Below are positions 18,708 through 23,253 of a stretch of 39,014 nucleotides of DNA, piece after piece. This DNA is from an uncultured Bacteroidota bacterium (lineage in GTDB: Bacteria; Bacteroidota; Bacteroidia; Flavobacteriales; Flavobacteriaceae), in the NCBI GenBank assembly GCA_902586435.1, contig CACIHJ010000010.1, positions 1 through 39,014 of the forward strand, in the 5' to 3' direction. The notes under the pieces are model-generated. The model was not told the DNA's origin. It ran no database searches and was given only the letters and a program-made list of their open reading frames with translations. Made by a program: the position numbers and the translations under genes. Every line of letters starts with the position of its first letter. Position 1 is the first letter of the stretch.

Positions 18708-19139
18708 ATGAAAATTAATTTAGAAAGAATTAACGATAAGTATCTTTTTGAGGTAACAAACAAAAATGGTCACAAGGTTCATTTAGATAGAAAATATTCT
18801 GATGATTATAATGTTCAAGGCTCAAGTCCAATGGAGCTATTATTAATGGGAGTTGCAGGCTGTAGTAGTATTGATATAATATCTATTTTAGAGAAACAAA
18901 AGCTATATCCTAAATCATATAAAATGGAAGTTTTTGGTGATAGGGAATCAGTTCCAGGATCACCTTTTAAGAAAATACATGCAGAACTTAGTATTGAAGG
19001 AGACATCCCGGCAGATAAGATTATTAGAGCTGCCCATCTTAGTTTTGATAAATATTGTTCTGTCTCTAAAAATCTTGAAAAAACTAGTGAGATAATACAT
19101 TCAATAGTATTAAATGGAGAAAAAATTAAAATAGCATAG
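18708..19139 (+). CDS. OsmC family protein
   Basis: 143 residues, full-length OsmC/Ohr fold. Members reduce organic hydroperoxides with a Cys pair. Here Cys52 (MGVAGCSSIDI) and Cys117 (FDKYCSVSKNL) stand at the peroxidatic and resolving positions, so the site looks intact. The sequence looks closer to the OsmC/YhfA-like group than to Ohr. It is the last gene of the SAM-controlled methionine run. Why a peroxide-type protein is placed there is not shown by the sequence; a link to sulfide or thiol handling is inference. No terminator is visible between it and the next promoter at 19161. Confidence 0.85.
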   Translation: MKINLERINDKYLFEVTNKNGHKVHLDRKYSDDYNVQGSSPMELLLMGVAGCSSIDIISILEKQKLYPKSYKMEVFGDRESVPGSPFKKIHAELSIEGDIPADKIIRAAHLSFDKYCSVSKNLEKTSEIIHSIVLNGEKIKIA

Positions 19140-19160
19140 ACTAAATAATCTAATAAAAAA

Positions 19161-19191
19161 TTTGTTTTTATAGATTGCTGTTATACTTTTG
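19161..19191 (+). promoter_or_regulatory. Promoter of the aromatic amino-acid operon
   Basis: TTTG (19161-19164), 19-base spacer, TACTTTTG (19184-19191): a full match to the Bacteroidota consensus TTTG-N19-TAnnTTTG. The predicted start of transcription is about 19195-19199, at or just before the ATG of the leader peptide at 19199. Confidence 0.72.
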
Positions 19192-19198
19192 TCCTGCT

Positions 19199-19267
19199 AT
19201 GAAATATATTTTTAATTATTATTTCAACTTTAGATATTACTTCTCATTATTTGAGACAGGATATTAG
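19199..19267 (+). CDS. Phe/Tyr-rich leader peptide of the aromatic operon (pheL-like)
   Basis: A 22-codon frame, ATG to TAG, too short for normal gene calling. Eleven of 22 residues are aromatic: Tyr at 3, 7, 8, 13, 14, 22 and Phe at 5, 9, 11, 15, 18. Among them are two Tyr-Tyr-Phe triplets (7-9, 13-15). It is followed 27 bases later by a strong terminator hairpin and then by pheA. This is the layout of a ribosome-mediated attenuator: scarcity of charged tRNA-Phe or tRNA-Tyr would stall the ribosome and prevent termination. Transcription probably starts within a few bases of the ATG, so translation would be leaderless or nearly so. The function is inferred from arrangement, not from homology. 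Confidence 0.82.
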   Translation: MKYIFNYYFNFRYYFSLFETGY

Positions 19268-19304
19268 TATTATTATATTAACAAAAAGTATTACAGTCCT
19301 GAAA
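19250..19304 (+). promoter_or_regulatory. Antiterminator pairing of the pheA attenuator
   Basis: CAGGAT (19257-19262), within the last codons of the leader peptide, can pair with GTCCTG (19296-19301; one G.U), the 5' strand of the terminator. TTT (19250-19252) with AAA (19302-19304) can extend it across a four-base bulge. A ribosome stalled on codon 15 or earlier leaves 19257 onward free, so the antiterminator forms. A ribosome reaching the stop at 19265 covers it, so the terminator forms. Confidence 0.6.
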
Positions 19305-19322
19305 TTTCAGGACTTTTTTTTT
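19295..19322 (+). terminator. Rho-independent terminator of the attenuator before pheA
   Basis: AGTCCTGA (19295-19302) and TCAGGACT (19307-19314) form a perfect eight-base-pair stem around a four-base AATT loop, itself self-complementary. Eight T follow (19315-19322). The pheA ATG begins at 19325, so any transcript of the operon must read through it. Confidence 0.9.
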
Positions 19323-19324
19323 AT

Positions 19325-20122
19325 ATGAGAGTAGGTATACAAGGAGTAAAAGGTTCTTACCATCATTTGGTTGCTCAAAATTATTTTGAGACAATTGAAC
19401 TTGTTGAATGTATGACATTTGATGCGTTAACAAGATCAATTGTTGATGGGAATTGTGATATTGCAGTTATGGCAATTGAAAATTCAATTGCTGGTTCAAT
19501 TCTCCCAAATTATGCTCTAATTGATGAGAGTAATCTTTTTATTACTGGAGAGTCTTATTTTAATATCAACCACAATTTACTTGCATTGCCTAGTCAGGAT
19601 ATAAATCAGATTAAAGAAGTGCACTCTCATCCAATGGCATTACTTCAGTGTTCTAAGTTTTTTAGTAAATATCCATCTATTAAACTTATTGAAACTAATG
19701 ATACTGCATTATTTGCAAAAAAAATTAGTGAGAATAAACTTGAAGGTTTGGGAGCTATAGCTAGTATTGAATCTGCAAAAATGTATGGTTTAGAAATTTT
19801 AAGCAAGTCTATTCAAACAATAAAAAATAATGTTACTCGATTTGTTATAGTAGAGAAAAAGATTTCTAATAAAAAAGACTTCACAAAGGCATCTCTAAAA
19901 TTTGTGTTAGATCATAAAAGAGGAAGTCTTGCATCTGTTCTAAATGTAATGAGTGATTGTAGTTTAAATTTAACAAAGATTCAATCTATACCGGTAATAA
20001 AAACTCCAGGTAAATATGCGTTTTTTGTTGATGTTTCTTTTGATAAAAAAGATAATTATGATAAGGCTGTCTCAATTATTAGGATAATGGCTCAGGAATT
20101 CAAAATTTTAGGTGAGTATTAA
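19325..20122 (+). CDS. pheA: Prephenate dehydratase with ACT domain
   Basis: Converts prephenate to phenylpyruvate, the committed step to phenylalanine. 265 residues: catalytic part about 1-180, ACT regulatory domain about 188-265. Seen: GIQGVKGSYHHLVAQNYF near the start, AIENSIAGSI, the catalytic NNVTRFVIVEK (Thr171-Arg172-Phe173), then KASLKFVLDHKRGSLASVLNVMSD of the ACT fold, where Phe usually binds. There is no chorismate mutase domain here; that activity is in the aroG-aroQ fusion downstream. First structural gene behind the attenuator. Confidence 0.94.
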   Translation: MRVGIQGVKGSYHHLVAQNYFETIELVECMTFDALTRSIVDGNCDIAVMAIENSIAGSILPNYALIDESNLFITGESYFNINHNLLALPSQDINQIKEVHSHPMALLQCSKFFSKYPSIKLIETNDTALFAKKISENKLEGLGAIASIESAKMYGLEILSKSIQTIKNNVTRFVIVEKKISNKKDFTKASLKFVLDHKRGSLASVLNVMSDCSLNLTKIQSIPVIKTPGKYAFFVDVSFDKKDNYDKAVSIIRIMAQEFKILGEY

Positions 20123-20131
20123 AAACATTTT

Positions 20132-20980
20132 ATGAAAGTAGGTATTATAGGATTAGGATTAATAGGAAGCTCTTTAGCATTAAAAATAGGTGAAGTATAT
20201 AATGATATTATTATATATGGGAAAGATATTAGTGACTCTAATCTATCTTATACTATTGAAAATAAAATTATAAACAAAAAACTTGAAGAAAAAGATTATT
20301 CAAAACTTGATATTCTTTTTGTGGCTATTCCAGTGGATCAAGTATTAAATGTTTTATCACCAATCTTAGATAAAGTAGGAGAAAATACATTAGTTGTAGA
20401 TTTAGGTTCAACAAAAAAACCCATATGTGATCTACTTAACAATAATGAAAATAGAAGAAAGTTTTTAGCTGCACATCCTATAGCAGGAACAGAATTTTCT
20501 GGACCAATATCGGCAGATAGCTCTCTTTTTGATAATAAGACTATTATTTTATGTGAAACTGAAAAAACAGAAAATAGATTACTGAATATGGCTAAAGACT
20601 TATTTTTAAATATTGGGATGAGTATAAAAGAGATGACAGCGGATGAACATGATAAACATATCGCATATGTATCTCATTTATCTCATATAACTTCATTTAT
20701 GCTTGGAAAGACAGTTATGGATAAAGAAAAAGATGAAGAAACAATATATGATATGGCGGGAAGTGGATTTGAGTCTACTGTTAGATTGGGAAAAAGTTCA
20801 CCTTCAATGTGGACTCCTATATTTAATCAAAATAAAAAAAATATTATTGATGCTTTAGATGAGTATCTGAAAAACATAAAAAATTTTAAACATCTAATAG
20901 AAACTGATAATCTATCAGAAATGTTTAATGAAATGGAACAAATTAATGGTATAAAAAATATTTTAAAAGGAATTAAATAA
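20132..20980 (+). CDS. tyrA: Prephenate dehydrogenase
   Basis: Oxidative decarboxylation of prephenate to 4-hydroxyphenylpyruvate, the tyrosine branch. 282 residues. Seen: Rossmann start KVGIIGLGLIGSSLALKI, FVAIPVDQV, VVDLGSTKKPI, AAHPIAGTEFSGP with the active-site His, and DEHDKHIAYVSHLSHITSF with the second conserved His set. Ten bases after pheA. Arogenate use is possible but not decidable from sequence. Confidence 0.92.
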   Translation: MKVGIIGLGLIGSSLALKIGEVYNDIIIYGKDISDSNLSYTIENKIINKKLEEKDYSKLDILFVAIPVDQVLNVLSPILDKVGENTLVVDLGSTKKPICDLLNNNENRRKFLAAHPIAGTEFSGPISADSSLFDNKTIILCETEKTENRLLNMAKDLFLNIGMSIKEMTADEHDKHIAYVSHLSHITSFMLGKTVMDKEKDEETIYDMAGSGFESTVRLGKSSPSMWTPIFNQNKKNIIDALDEYLKNIKNFKHLIETDNLSEMFNEMEQINGIKNILKGIK

Positions 20981-20986
20981 TTAATT

Positions 20987-22075
20987 ATGGAAAATAAAAA
21001 AGAAATGAGAAGTTGGCTTGATGAAATGAATCTATCTCATCCCTTAGTTATTGCTGGACCTTGTAGTGCAGAGACAGAGGATCAGGTAATGGATATTGCT
21101 AACCAATTGAAAGATACAGATGTAACTGCATATAGAGCTGGAATTTGGAAACCAAGAACTAGGCCTGGAATGTTTGAAGGAGTTGGAGGAATAGGATTGA
21201 ATTGGTTAAGTAGAGTTAAAAAAGAAACAGGATTGTTAACTGCAACTGAAGTTGCAAATTCTGTTCACGTAGACTTAGCTTTAAAACATGATATAGATAT
21301 TTTATGGATAGGTGCAAGATCAACCGTTAGTCCATTTATTGTTCAGGAGATTGCTGATGCATTAAAAGGAACTGAAAAAATTGTTTTAATAAAAAATCCT
21401 GTTAATCCTGACCTTTCACTATGGCTTGGTGGTATTGAAAGAATTTACTCATCTGACATAAAAAGGGTAGGAGTTATTCACAGAGGTTTTTCAACATATG
21501 ATAAATCAAACTATAGAAATAATCCTGAATGGCAAATTGCGGTTGAGCTTCAAAGTAATTTTCCTGATCTACCATTAATATGTGATCCTTCCCATATTGC
21601 TGGTAGAAGAGATCTGATTTTTGATTTAAGTCAGACAGCTCTTGACTTAAATTATGATGGACTTATGATTGAATCTCATATAGATCCTGATAATGCATGG
21701 AGTGATGCAGCTCAACAAGTAACTCCAAAAAGATTAGTAGAGATAATGAAAGATCTAATAATTCGAGATAAAACTTCATTAAAAGATGACTTTCAAAATG
21801 AATTAAATAACCTTAGGTCTCAAATAGATATAACCGATCAAAACATATTAACTACCCTTGGTAAAAGGATGGAGGTTGCAAAAAATATTGGGATTTTGAA
21901 ATCCGATAATAATGTCGCTATTTTACAAAACAAAAGATGGAATGAAATTTTAGGGAAAATGATATTAGATGGTGAAGCACATGGTTTAAGTGAACAATTT
22001 ATTTTAAGAATTTTTAAAGCTATTCACCAAGAGTCAATTAATAATCAAAAAAAAATATTAAAAAAAAATAAGTAA
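20987..22075 (+). CDS. Bifunctional DAHP synthase / chorismate mutase (AroG-AroQ fusion)
   Basis: First shikimate-pathway step (PEP plus erythrose-4-phosphate to DAHP) fused to chorismate mutase, which makes prephenate. 362 residues: DAHP synthase about 15-262 (VIAGPCSAETEDQV, YRAGIWKPRTRPG, GARSTVSPF, LICDPSHIAGRRDLI, LMIESHIDP) and a C-terminal AroQ-type helical mutase about 272-355 (LRSQIDITDQNILTTLGKRMEVAKNIG). The mutase-at-C-terminus order is known from Bacteroidota enzymes, where prephenate or chorismate inhibits synthase activity through this domain. The stop shares a base with the next ATG (TAATG). Confidence 0.93.
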   Translation: MENKKEMRSWLDEMNLSHPLVIAGPCSAETEDQVMDIANQLKDTDVTAYRAGIWKPRTRPGMFEGVGGIGLNWLSRVKKETGLLTATEVANSVHVDLALKHDIDILWIGARSTVSPFIVQEIADALKGTEKIVLIKNPVNPDLSLWLGGIERIYSSDIKRVGVIHRGFSTYDKSNYRNNPEWQIAVELQSNFPDLPLICDPSHIAGRRDLIFDLSQTALDLNYDGLMIESHIDPDNAWSDAAQQVTPKRLVEIMKDLIIRDKTSLKDDFQNELNNLRSQIDITDQNILTTLGKRMEVAKNIGILKSDNNVAILQNKRWNEILGKMILDGEAHGLSEQFILRIFKAIHQESINNQKKILKKNK

Positions 22076-23253
22076 TGTTATCAGACAAGATTAACTCATT
22101 GCCTATATCTCAAACTGTAGGGATGACAGCAAAAGCTCATGATCTTAAAAATAAGGGTATTGATGTTATAACATTAAGTGCAGGTGAACCAGATTTTAAT
22201 ATTCCTGACTATATTAAGGATGCAGCAATAGATGCTATAAATAATAATTTTCACAAATATTCACCAGTTGATGGTTTTGTTGAATTAAAAAAGGCAATAT
22301 GTACAAAATTTAAAAGAGATAATAATCTAGAATATGAAATAGATCAAATAGTTGTTTCAACTGGTGCAAAACAATCTATTGTAAATGCTATAATGTCACT
22401 TATAAATCCTGGAGATGAAGTTATTATCCCAACACCATATTGGGTTAGTTATAGTGCAATGGTAACATTGGCTGAGGGAACATCTGTATTTGTAAACCCG
22501 AAAGATTCAAGTCATAAAATAAGTGCTGATCAATTAGAATCTGCTATTACAAATAAAACTAAAATGTTAATGTTGAACTCTCCGAATAATCCAAGTGGTT
22601 CTGTATTCTCAAATGATGAATATTTAGAATTTTCAAAAGTTTTAGAAAAATATCCTCATATAATAGTTATATCTGATGAAATATATGAACATATTAATTA
22701 TGATTTTAAAACTCCAAGTTTTGCATCTATACCTGGAATGTTTGATAGAACTATAACTGTAAATGGAGTATCTAAGGCTTTTGCTATGACAGGATGGAGA
22801 ATAGGTTATTTAGCAGCATCAAAAAAAATTGCAAAAGCATGTAATAAAATGCAGGGTCAAATAACTAGTGGAGCTAACTGTATTGCTCAACAAGCTGCAA
22901 TTAAAGCTCTTATGGAGCCGCCTTCAAAAGTTCAATATATGGTTGAAGAGTTCAAAATAAGACGAAATCTAATAATCAAACTGCTTAATCAAATTGAAGG
23001 TTTTAGGATTGACGAACCTCCATCCGGTGCTTTCTATGTTTTTCCAGATATTTCGTCATTCTTTGGAAAAGATATAAAAGGAAAGAAAATAAATAATTCT
23101 TCTGACTTTGCAATGCTACTTCTAGAAGTAGCTCATGTGGCAACTGTTCCAGGTGATGCTTTTGGATCACCAAACTGTTTAAGAATTTCATATGCAGCTT
23201 CAAGGGAGGATATAGAATCTGCTATCAATAGAATAAAATCACTTTTATCTTGA
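22075..23253 (+). CDS. Class I/II aminotransferase (aspartate/aromatic/prephenate type)
   Basis: Fold-type I PLP aminotransferase of the AspC-Ib group. 392 residues. Seen: LSAGEPDFNIPDYIKDAA, PYWVSYSAMV, SPNNPSGSVF, ISDEIYEHINYD, the Schiff-base Lys234 in VNGVSKAFAMTGWRIGY and the C-terminal Arg in NCLRISYAAS. In an operon with pheA and tyrA it probably does the last transamination to Phe/Tyr, or acts on prephenate as in arogenate-forming enzymes. Aspartate as substrate is equally compatible with the sequence. Confidence 0.88.
   Translation: MLSDKINSLPISQTVGMTAKAHDLKNKGIDVITLSAGEPDFNIPDYIKDAAIDAINNNFHKYSPVDGFVELKKAICTKFKRDNNLEYEIDQIVVSTGAKQSIVNAIMSLINPGDEVIIPTPYWVSYSAMVTLAEGTSVFVNPKDSSHKISADQLESAITNKTKMLMLNSPNNPSGSVFSNDEYLEFSKVLEKYPHIIVISDEIYEHINYDFKTPSFASIPGMFDRTITVNGVSKAFAMTGWRIGYLAASKKIAKACNKMQGQITSGANCIAQQAAIKALMEPPSKVQYMVEEFKIRRNLIIKLLNQIEGFRIDEPPSGAFYVFPDISSFFGKDIKGKKINNSSDFAMLLLEVAHVATVPGDAFGSPNCLRISYAASREDIESAINRIKSLLS

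Follow-up and report, generated by a model that had tools for sequence, protein, structure and literature searches.

A Candidate Ribosome-Mediated Attenuator with a Phe/Tyr-Rich Leader Peptide Upstream of pheA in Flavobacteriaceae

The window analyzed here, a stretch of 39,014 nucleotides from an uncultured member of the Flavobacteriaceae (contig CACIHJ010000010.1), very probably contains a transcription attenuator ahead of a pheA operon, mediated by the ribosome and sensing charged tRNA-Phe and tRNA-Tyr. The window has a short leader ORF rich in codons for the end products Phe and Tyr, a U-tailed terminator before the first gene (seen in the window scan, in relatives and in the alignment), and a mutually exclusive antiterminator conserved by covariation. 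In modelled stalls, the control codons are so spaced that a stalled ribosome frees the antiterminator strand and a ribosome at the stop codon covers it.

The Leader ORF and the Downstream Operon

The leader frame occupies positions 19199-19267 of the + strand and encodes MKYIFNYYFNFRYYFSLFETGY*, in which 11 of 22 codons specify Phe or Tyr and Tyr-Tyr-Phe occurs twice; the initial annotation had described it in these terms and at this position. Its assignment draws on sequence, conservation, comparison with shuffles and codon drift. A content of 50% Phe plus Tyr is reached by none of 13,407 ORFs of 15-30 amino acids from 40 dinucleotide shuffles of the window, and 6 of 5000 shuffles of the intergenic stretch yield a comparable aromatic ORF on the + strand. 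Among the real ORFs of 15-30 amino acids in the window (n = 221), one other has at least 50% Phe plus Tyr; it lies on the - strand at 22642, within a + strand gene. The composition of the leader ORF is beyond chance.

The first gene downstream is pheA, encoding prephenate dehydratase (19325-20122, +; PF00800, E = 4.8e-54). It is followed by tyrA, encoding prephenate dehydrogenase (20132-20980, +; PF02153/PF20463), and by a gene for an aroG-type DAHP synthase fused to chorismate mutase (20987-22075, +; PF00793 and PF01817). The operon had been read as pheA-tyrA-aroGQ, with products that make Phe and Tyr, and both statements agree with the domain matches of these genes. The series continues into a class I/II aminotransferase gene (22075-23253, +; PF00155), and then into an rsmG-like gene. 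The aminotransferase gene has one base in common with the preceding gene and is a probable member of the operon; a relative of it comes after pheA in named Flavobacteriaceae. Upstream of the leader, an osmC-like gene on the same strand as pheA ends at 19139.

Terminator, Antiterminator and Ribosome Position

The intrinsic terminator (19295-19322, +), assigned by sequence, scan and fold, is made up of a hairpin between strands 3 and 4 (3:4) and a T run. Its stem (19295-19302/19307-19314) has eight perfect pairs closed by an AAUU loop, and the T residues occupy 19315-19322. The T run ends 2 nt ahead of the pheA ATG (19325) and the 8-pair stem ends 10 nt ahead of it, which bears out the earlier description of a perfect 8-bp terminator with eight T two bases before the gene. 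A scan of 18900-19500 found one terminator against 0.1 expected, and the 3:4 hairpin has a folding energy of -11.0 kcal/mol.

The 5′ arm of the antiterminator contains the strand 2 core CAGGAT (19257-19262, +), placed by fold and by covariation in relatives, which pairs with 19296-19301 and extends over codons 20-22. A second helix has its 5′ arm at 19265-19271 (+) and its partner at 19287-19293, such that the 3′ arm as a whole, including the strand 3 core 19296-19301, spans 19287-19301 (+; fold and covariation) and the entire antiterminator folds at -10.4 kcal/mol. The initial annotation was right that a strand here pairs with the 5′ half of the terminator, but it confined that strand to codons 20-21 and saw a shorter antiterminator, lacking the additional helix.

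Ribosome stalls were modelled with the leading edge assumed to lie at +12 from the first base of the A site. With the A site at codon 13, 14 or 15, the free RNA as far as strand 3 folds as the antiterminator (-10.4 kcal/mol), and with the A site at codon 18, 20, 22 or the stop codon this fold is abolished. The geometry first proposed, in which a ribosome at codon 15 leaves 19257 onward free and one at the stop codon covers it, agrees with these modelled stalls. In the window, strand 2 begins 12 nt past the last aromatic pair and ends at +5 relative to the stop codon. A further Phe lies at codon 18, where a stall would cover strand 2, and this counts against the model. Once strand 4 is present the terminator fold (-13.6 kcal/mol, with a small upstream hairpin) beats the antiterminator (-10.4 kcal/mol), and antitermination must therefore be kinetic.

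Folding from the predicted transcript start also gives a possible hairpin between strands 1 and 2 (19233-19265, +), which combines 19233-19238/19260-19265 with an inner stem at 19242-19246/19252-19256 and overlaps control codons 12-14. The 1:2 pairing of the window equals that of its shuffled control (0.52 vs. 0.52). A first simple fold, in which 19190-19196 pairs with strand 2, was set aside because the predicted start at about 19196 leaves nearly the whole 5′ partner untranscribed, and because same-genus relatives other than the nearest (L003) have, as judged by eye, no complement.

Occurrence Upstream of pheA in Relatives

The relatives set, which includes the own genome, has PheA in 45 of 60 genomes, and the family set has it in 360 of 397. 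The survey covered 142 same-class loci, including the window: 57 from the genus and family, 40 further family loci taken in listed order from the PheA matches of the family set, 15 from the relatives set and 30 wider loci. The last comprise one same-order genome and 29 out of 33 same-class genomes with pheA, G567, G614, G663 and G686 being those left out. A locus was counted if it had an ATG-initiated ORF of 12-45 amino acids with at least five Phe/Tyr/Trp residues making up at least 28%, and a hairpin with a T run no more than 85 nt from the leader stop.

Leader and terminator are found together at 128 of the 142 loci, window included: 96/97 in the genus and family, 12/15 in the remainder of the relatives set and 20/30 in the wider same-class group. 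Among the 14 misses, L057 is cut at a contig end inside the leader and L160 has a leader but no hairpin. L144 and L156 have a hairpin and no leader under the rule, as does L057 with its leader start lost at the contig end; L103, L111, L112, L145-L147, L154, L163, L164 and L170 have neither. A hairpin unaccompanied by an aromatic frame, named at the outset as an observation that would speak against attenuation, is rare (3/142 loci). Regulation of pheA seems to have been lost, to have moved or to be different at L111, L112 and L154 (family f5), L145-L147 and L163.

Under the same rule, none of 29 loci from other classes, which were among the best-scoring PheA matches of the phylum sample, has leader and terminator. 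L140, from the same-order genome G040 and representing the same region as the miss L111, is also negative, giving 0/30 overall in the phylum sample, and a differently tuned scan agrees. A separate related-locus search queried with PheA returned no relative.

An exact leader pattern is present in 36 stretches of named genomes, for example from Winogradskyella, Flaviramulus, Mangrovimonas and Gaetbulibacter. In 35 of these pheA lies downstream; the stretch of L179 stops 107 nt past the pattern. Of the 36 stretches, 22 have all four genes in the order pheA-aminotransferase-tyrA-aroG, in contrast to pheA-tyrA-aroG-aminotransferase in the window; the remainder have fewer of the four inside the stretch.

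An RNA model was built from 65 family leaders; its matches are not independent, because many family sequences were also among those searched, and they show gene-specificity rather than independent discovery. The own genome has a single model match, and 23 of the 25 genus genomes are matched, precisely those in which pheA was matched too; G009 and G023 have neither. Model matches occur in 221 of the 249 genomes of the family set, 13 of which have two or three. Of the 20 non-matching family genomes listed, 16 have no pheA match and four (G070, G082, G134 and G139) have pheA, and G080 has a weak model match without pheA. Among the first 25 matches listed, 21 have pheA coordinates; every one of these is on the same strand as pheA and no more than 100 nt upstream of it.

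Several loci depart from the simple arrangement. Genome G095 has a second strong model match (C240:8625-8750; E = 2.7e-13) besides that before pheA, which may be a duplicate or a foreign contig (the assembly has 6% contamination). Tandem aromatic leader-plus-terminator units precede pheA at L110, L165 and L166 (3/142 same-class loci) and could possibly form a double gate; at L169 a second aromatic leader ORF comes without a hairpin that satisfies the rule. At L045 and L048 the leader stops right after the Phe run, and the likely strand 2 lies just 3′ of the stop codon, where a terminating ribosome can probably still reach it.

Predicted Promoter and Transcript Start

A sigma-A promoter is predicted from a -33 box, TTTG (19161-19164, +), and a -7 box, TACTTTTG (19184-19191, +; consensus TAnnTTTG). 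The former is recognized by sequence and by TTG at the matching region in relatives, the latter by sequence, by the position of the box in Flavobacterium psychrophilum and by conservation in the genus. TAnnTTTG is found no more than 45 nt from the leader ATG at 41% of the 128 loci, as compared with 4.7% in shuffles. If TAnnTTAG is also allowed, 114 of the 128 loci have a -7-like box, and 98 of these 114 have TTG in the region equivalent to -33. In the own genus the -7 box lies 6-9 nt 5′ of the leader ATG at all 23 loci. A Bacteroidota-type promoter is predicted, on these motifs, to precede the leader, between the osmC-like gene and pheA.

In F. psychrophilum promoters, as given in passages of the report on this species, the -7 box sits at -12 to -5 (PMC9723704). 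With the box so placed, transcription of the window element probably starts at about 19196, some 3 nt 5′ of the leader AUG, and the predicted 5′ UTR in the own genus is probably 2-5 nt (3 nt in the window). A broader reading, plausible although we lean slightly away from it, is of an attenuator found across the Bacteroidia which, in this genus of reduced genomes, operates on an essentially leaderless transcript, the ribosome loading at an AUG 2-5 nt from the 5′ end with no Shine-Dalgarno site. To our knowledge, Bacteroidota lack Shine-Dalgarno sequences. Such sequences are described as absent in F. psychrophilum, in which leaderless transcripts make up only 5.5% of mRNAs with mapped starts according to the same passages (PMC9723704). 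With an AUG so close to the 5′ end and no Shine-Dalgarno site, ribosome and polymerase would be in step from the first nucleotides, and an attenuator working in this way would demonstrate functional transcription-translation coupling in Bacteroidota.

Covariation, Codon Drift and Alternative Readings

For alignment, 94 family sequences were used, without L045 and L048 (early stop, odd register), and thinned to 65 at 93% similarity. The 3:4 stem is 97.7% paired in these 65 sequences, against 22-49% in slid versions. A fixed-column count of 2:3 scored only 62% as paired, and a shift of one column brought 67%, because the alignment had put the two main groups one column apart; this count was replaced by a free-register test with matched controls. 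Over the 128 loci, the 2:3 duplex has a mean energy of -11.9 kcal/mol, vs. -7.9 with the strand 3 of another locus and -5.4 with a shuffled strand 2. At 109/128 loci, 5 or fewer of 100 shuffles give an equally good duplex (1/100 in the window); at the other 19/128 the number exceeds 5, which counts against the pairing there.

Six strand 3 cores occur among the 65 sequences (GTCTCG, GTCCTG, GTCCCG, ATCCCG, GCCTCG and GTCCTA). All six core pairs, G-U allowed, form with the sequence's own strand 2 in 51 of the 65; the figure falls to 21.5% when another core is substituted (2648 combinations) and to 7% for shuffles. Core pairs have been altered on both sides at position 2 (A-U to G-C) and position 3 (G-C to A-U). 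Covarying terminator and antiterminator stems in relatives had been suggested as a check on the attenuator, and both the 3:4 stem and the 2:3 pairing do covary.

Evidence bearing on strand 1 comes from the 65 aligned leaders and the 128 loci. RNAalifold finds no pairs outside 3:4 over all 65 leaders; by subgroup it gives short 1:2 or 2:3 helices in some and none in the 15 other GTCCTG sequences. Without strands 3 and 4, leaders fold with a mean z of -2.4 relative to dinucleotide shuffles (110/128 below -1; window -1.0). Upstream pairing of strand 2 is 0.72 vs. 0.485 in the control and lies above the control at 122/128 loci; for the outer 1:2 columns, pairing is 75% vs. 26-57% in slid versions. 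This suggests that a classical strand 1 exists in relatives, with no excess in the window. An inner stem within the control codons (75% paired vs. 62-74% slid) was not convincing and was dropped.

Codon drift was counted among 21 distinct own-genus leaders, in same-length pairs with no more than 14 differences. Changes number 116, 84 and 43 at codon positions 3, 2 and 1, and 76/194 changed codons are synonymous in frame vs. 25/181 and 26/176 in the shifted frames (pairwise counts, not independent). The synonymous drift whose absence was to have told against the frame is therefore present in the own genus. Spacing in relatives is that needed for a stalled ribosome: the gap from the last aromatic codon pair to strand 2 has a median of 10 nt (quartiles 8-11), and strand 2 ends at a median of -1 nt relative to the stop codon.

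Could the hairpin simply be the terminator of the osmC-like gene, beside an AT-rich ORF that is aromatic by chance? That gene does share a strand with pheA, in an AT-rich region, but a promoter-like pair conserved in relatives lies between both genes, and relatives retain both leader and terminator, the stem ending 6-124 nt before pheA. The composition of the ORF and the coding drift of its frame also argue against this explanation, which is highly improbable.

It is very unlikely, too, that the hairpin mainly masks the start region of pheA and controls translation, with the leader peptide acting via ribosome position. In the window, 10 nt separate the end of the 8-pair stem from the pheA ATG, or 8 nt if a longer arm is taken, but over the 128 loci the distance from stem end to the homology-inferred pheA start is 6-124 nt (median 20.5), exceeding 40 nt in 27. 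The U run gives no independent evidence here because it was part of the selection rule. A side effect on pheA translation is conceivable in short-spaced genomes.

For the preferred reading, transcription attenuation, the parts and their conservation, covariation and spacing are seen directly, and from them we infer a start site, termination, stalling and a response to Phe and Tyr. Transcription would start about 3 nt 5′ of the leader AUG. When Phe and Tyr are plentiful, the ribosome would reach the stop codon and cover strand 2 (19257-19262), the 3:4 hairpin would form and RNA polymerase would halt at the U run before pheA. When Phe or Tyr is scarce, the ribosome would wait at codons 13-15 (Tyr-Tyr-Phe), its leading edge just 5′ of strand 2; strand 2 would then be free to pair with strand 3, along with the 19265-19271:19287-19293 helix, the terminator would not form in time, and pheA-tyrA-aroG-aminotransferase would be transcribed.

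Relation to Known Systems

The enterobacterial pheL/pheA attenuator (Rfam Phe_leader) comprises a short Phe-rich leader ORF, an antiterminator and a U-tailed terminator, and has pheA as its target. The window element shares all of these features, with its antiterminator and terminator in competition as well. It differs in that it has no Rfam match, Phe and Tyr codons are both abundant, the predicted start is near-leaderless, and tyrA, DAHP synthase and aminotransferase genes follow pheA.

Attenuation of this kind had been called far less described in Bacteroidota, which is fair, although some precedents exist. A putative attenuator before pheA > hisHb > aroAIbeta-aroQ > tyrA of Bacteroides thetaiotaomicron appears in Table 7 of a 2005 study, from the Merino database (PMC1173090). 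The pathway genes, phylum and predicted attenuator are in common with the window; the entry is a database listing, the passages concerned give no leader peptide, and the word "leader" is absent from the main text of that study (PMC1173090). In 2021, structured 5′ elements were reported upstream of pheA and hisG in F. psychrophilum and in other genera of Flavobacteriaceae, with no Rfam hits, and "strong clues" were noted that amino-acid operons are attenuated through leader peptides (PMC9723704). Gene, family and lack of an Rfam match are shared with the window element, for which peptide, strands and spacing can be given; the relevant passages of the report do not give these (PMC9723704). The pheA element of F. 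psychrophilum and that of the window are presumably the same.

Among RNAs of Bacteroidetes with a probable cis-regulatory role, Table 1 of PMC2864571 includes Bacteroid-trp. It is RF01692 in Rfam and was not matched at the family cut-off in the own genome (84% complete), where HisG was not found either. We take RF01692 to be a Trp leader. Other sources touch on the subject in part: one passage states that, ermC excepted, its authors know of no leader peptide systems beyond Proteobacteria and Actinobacteria (PMC2965389), another describes B. thetaiotaomicron sORFs reminiscent of leader peptides (PMC7366714), a third counts leader genes in Bacteroidetes among other groups (PMC4833913), and a fourth, in the portion concerned, mentions his attenuation for enterobacteria only (PMC8305728). 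Among titles and abstracts on leader peptides and attenuation in Bacteroidota, a search whose scope took in few subscription papers, none describes the peptide found here.

The element is, with high probability, a genuine attenuator. It is new as a described member and in its anatomy across the class, the mechanism being ordinary and classical in kind. Earlier listings of pheA attenuators or 5′ elements in Bacteroidota thereby gain a specific and testable anatomy (peptide, strands and spacing) in most sampled genomes of the class. The analysis adds a candidate RNA family without an Rfam match, and the element would be a natural reporter for ribosome-RNA polymerase coupling in a phylum not known to have Shine-Dalgarno sequences.

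Competing hairpins are also used by metabolite riboswitches, T-boxes and protein-binding attenuators, with any of which the ORF would be incidental, and a SAM-II riboswitch does lie 4 kb upstream. However, no family of Rfam release 15 (4227 models) reaches its gathering score in the element, the window matching only SAM-II and tRNA elsewhere. Four matches at E up to 10 fall far below gathering scores, and none belongs to a leader, T-box or riboswitch family. As aromatic codons are also kept amid synonymous drift, such a regulator is extremely doubtful, and ribosome-mediated attenuation remains the preferred reading. The SAM-II riboswitch itself (RF01726; 15100-15159, +; 77.4 bits), about 4 kb upstream of the pheA leader, lies some 48 nt ahead of an S-adenosylmethionine synthetase gene (15207), and a gene for a PLP enzyme of Cys/Met metabolism (16457) comes next.
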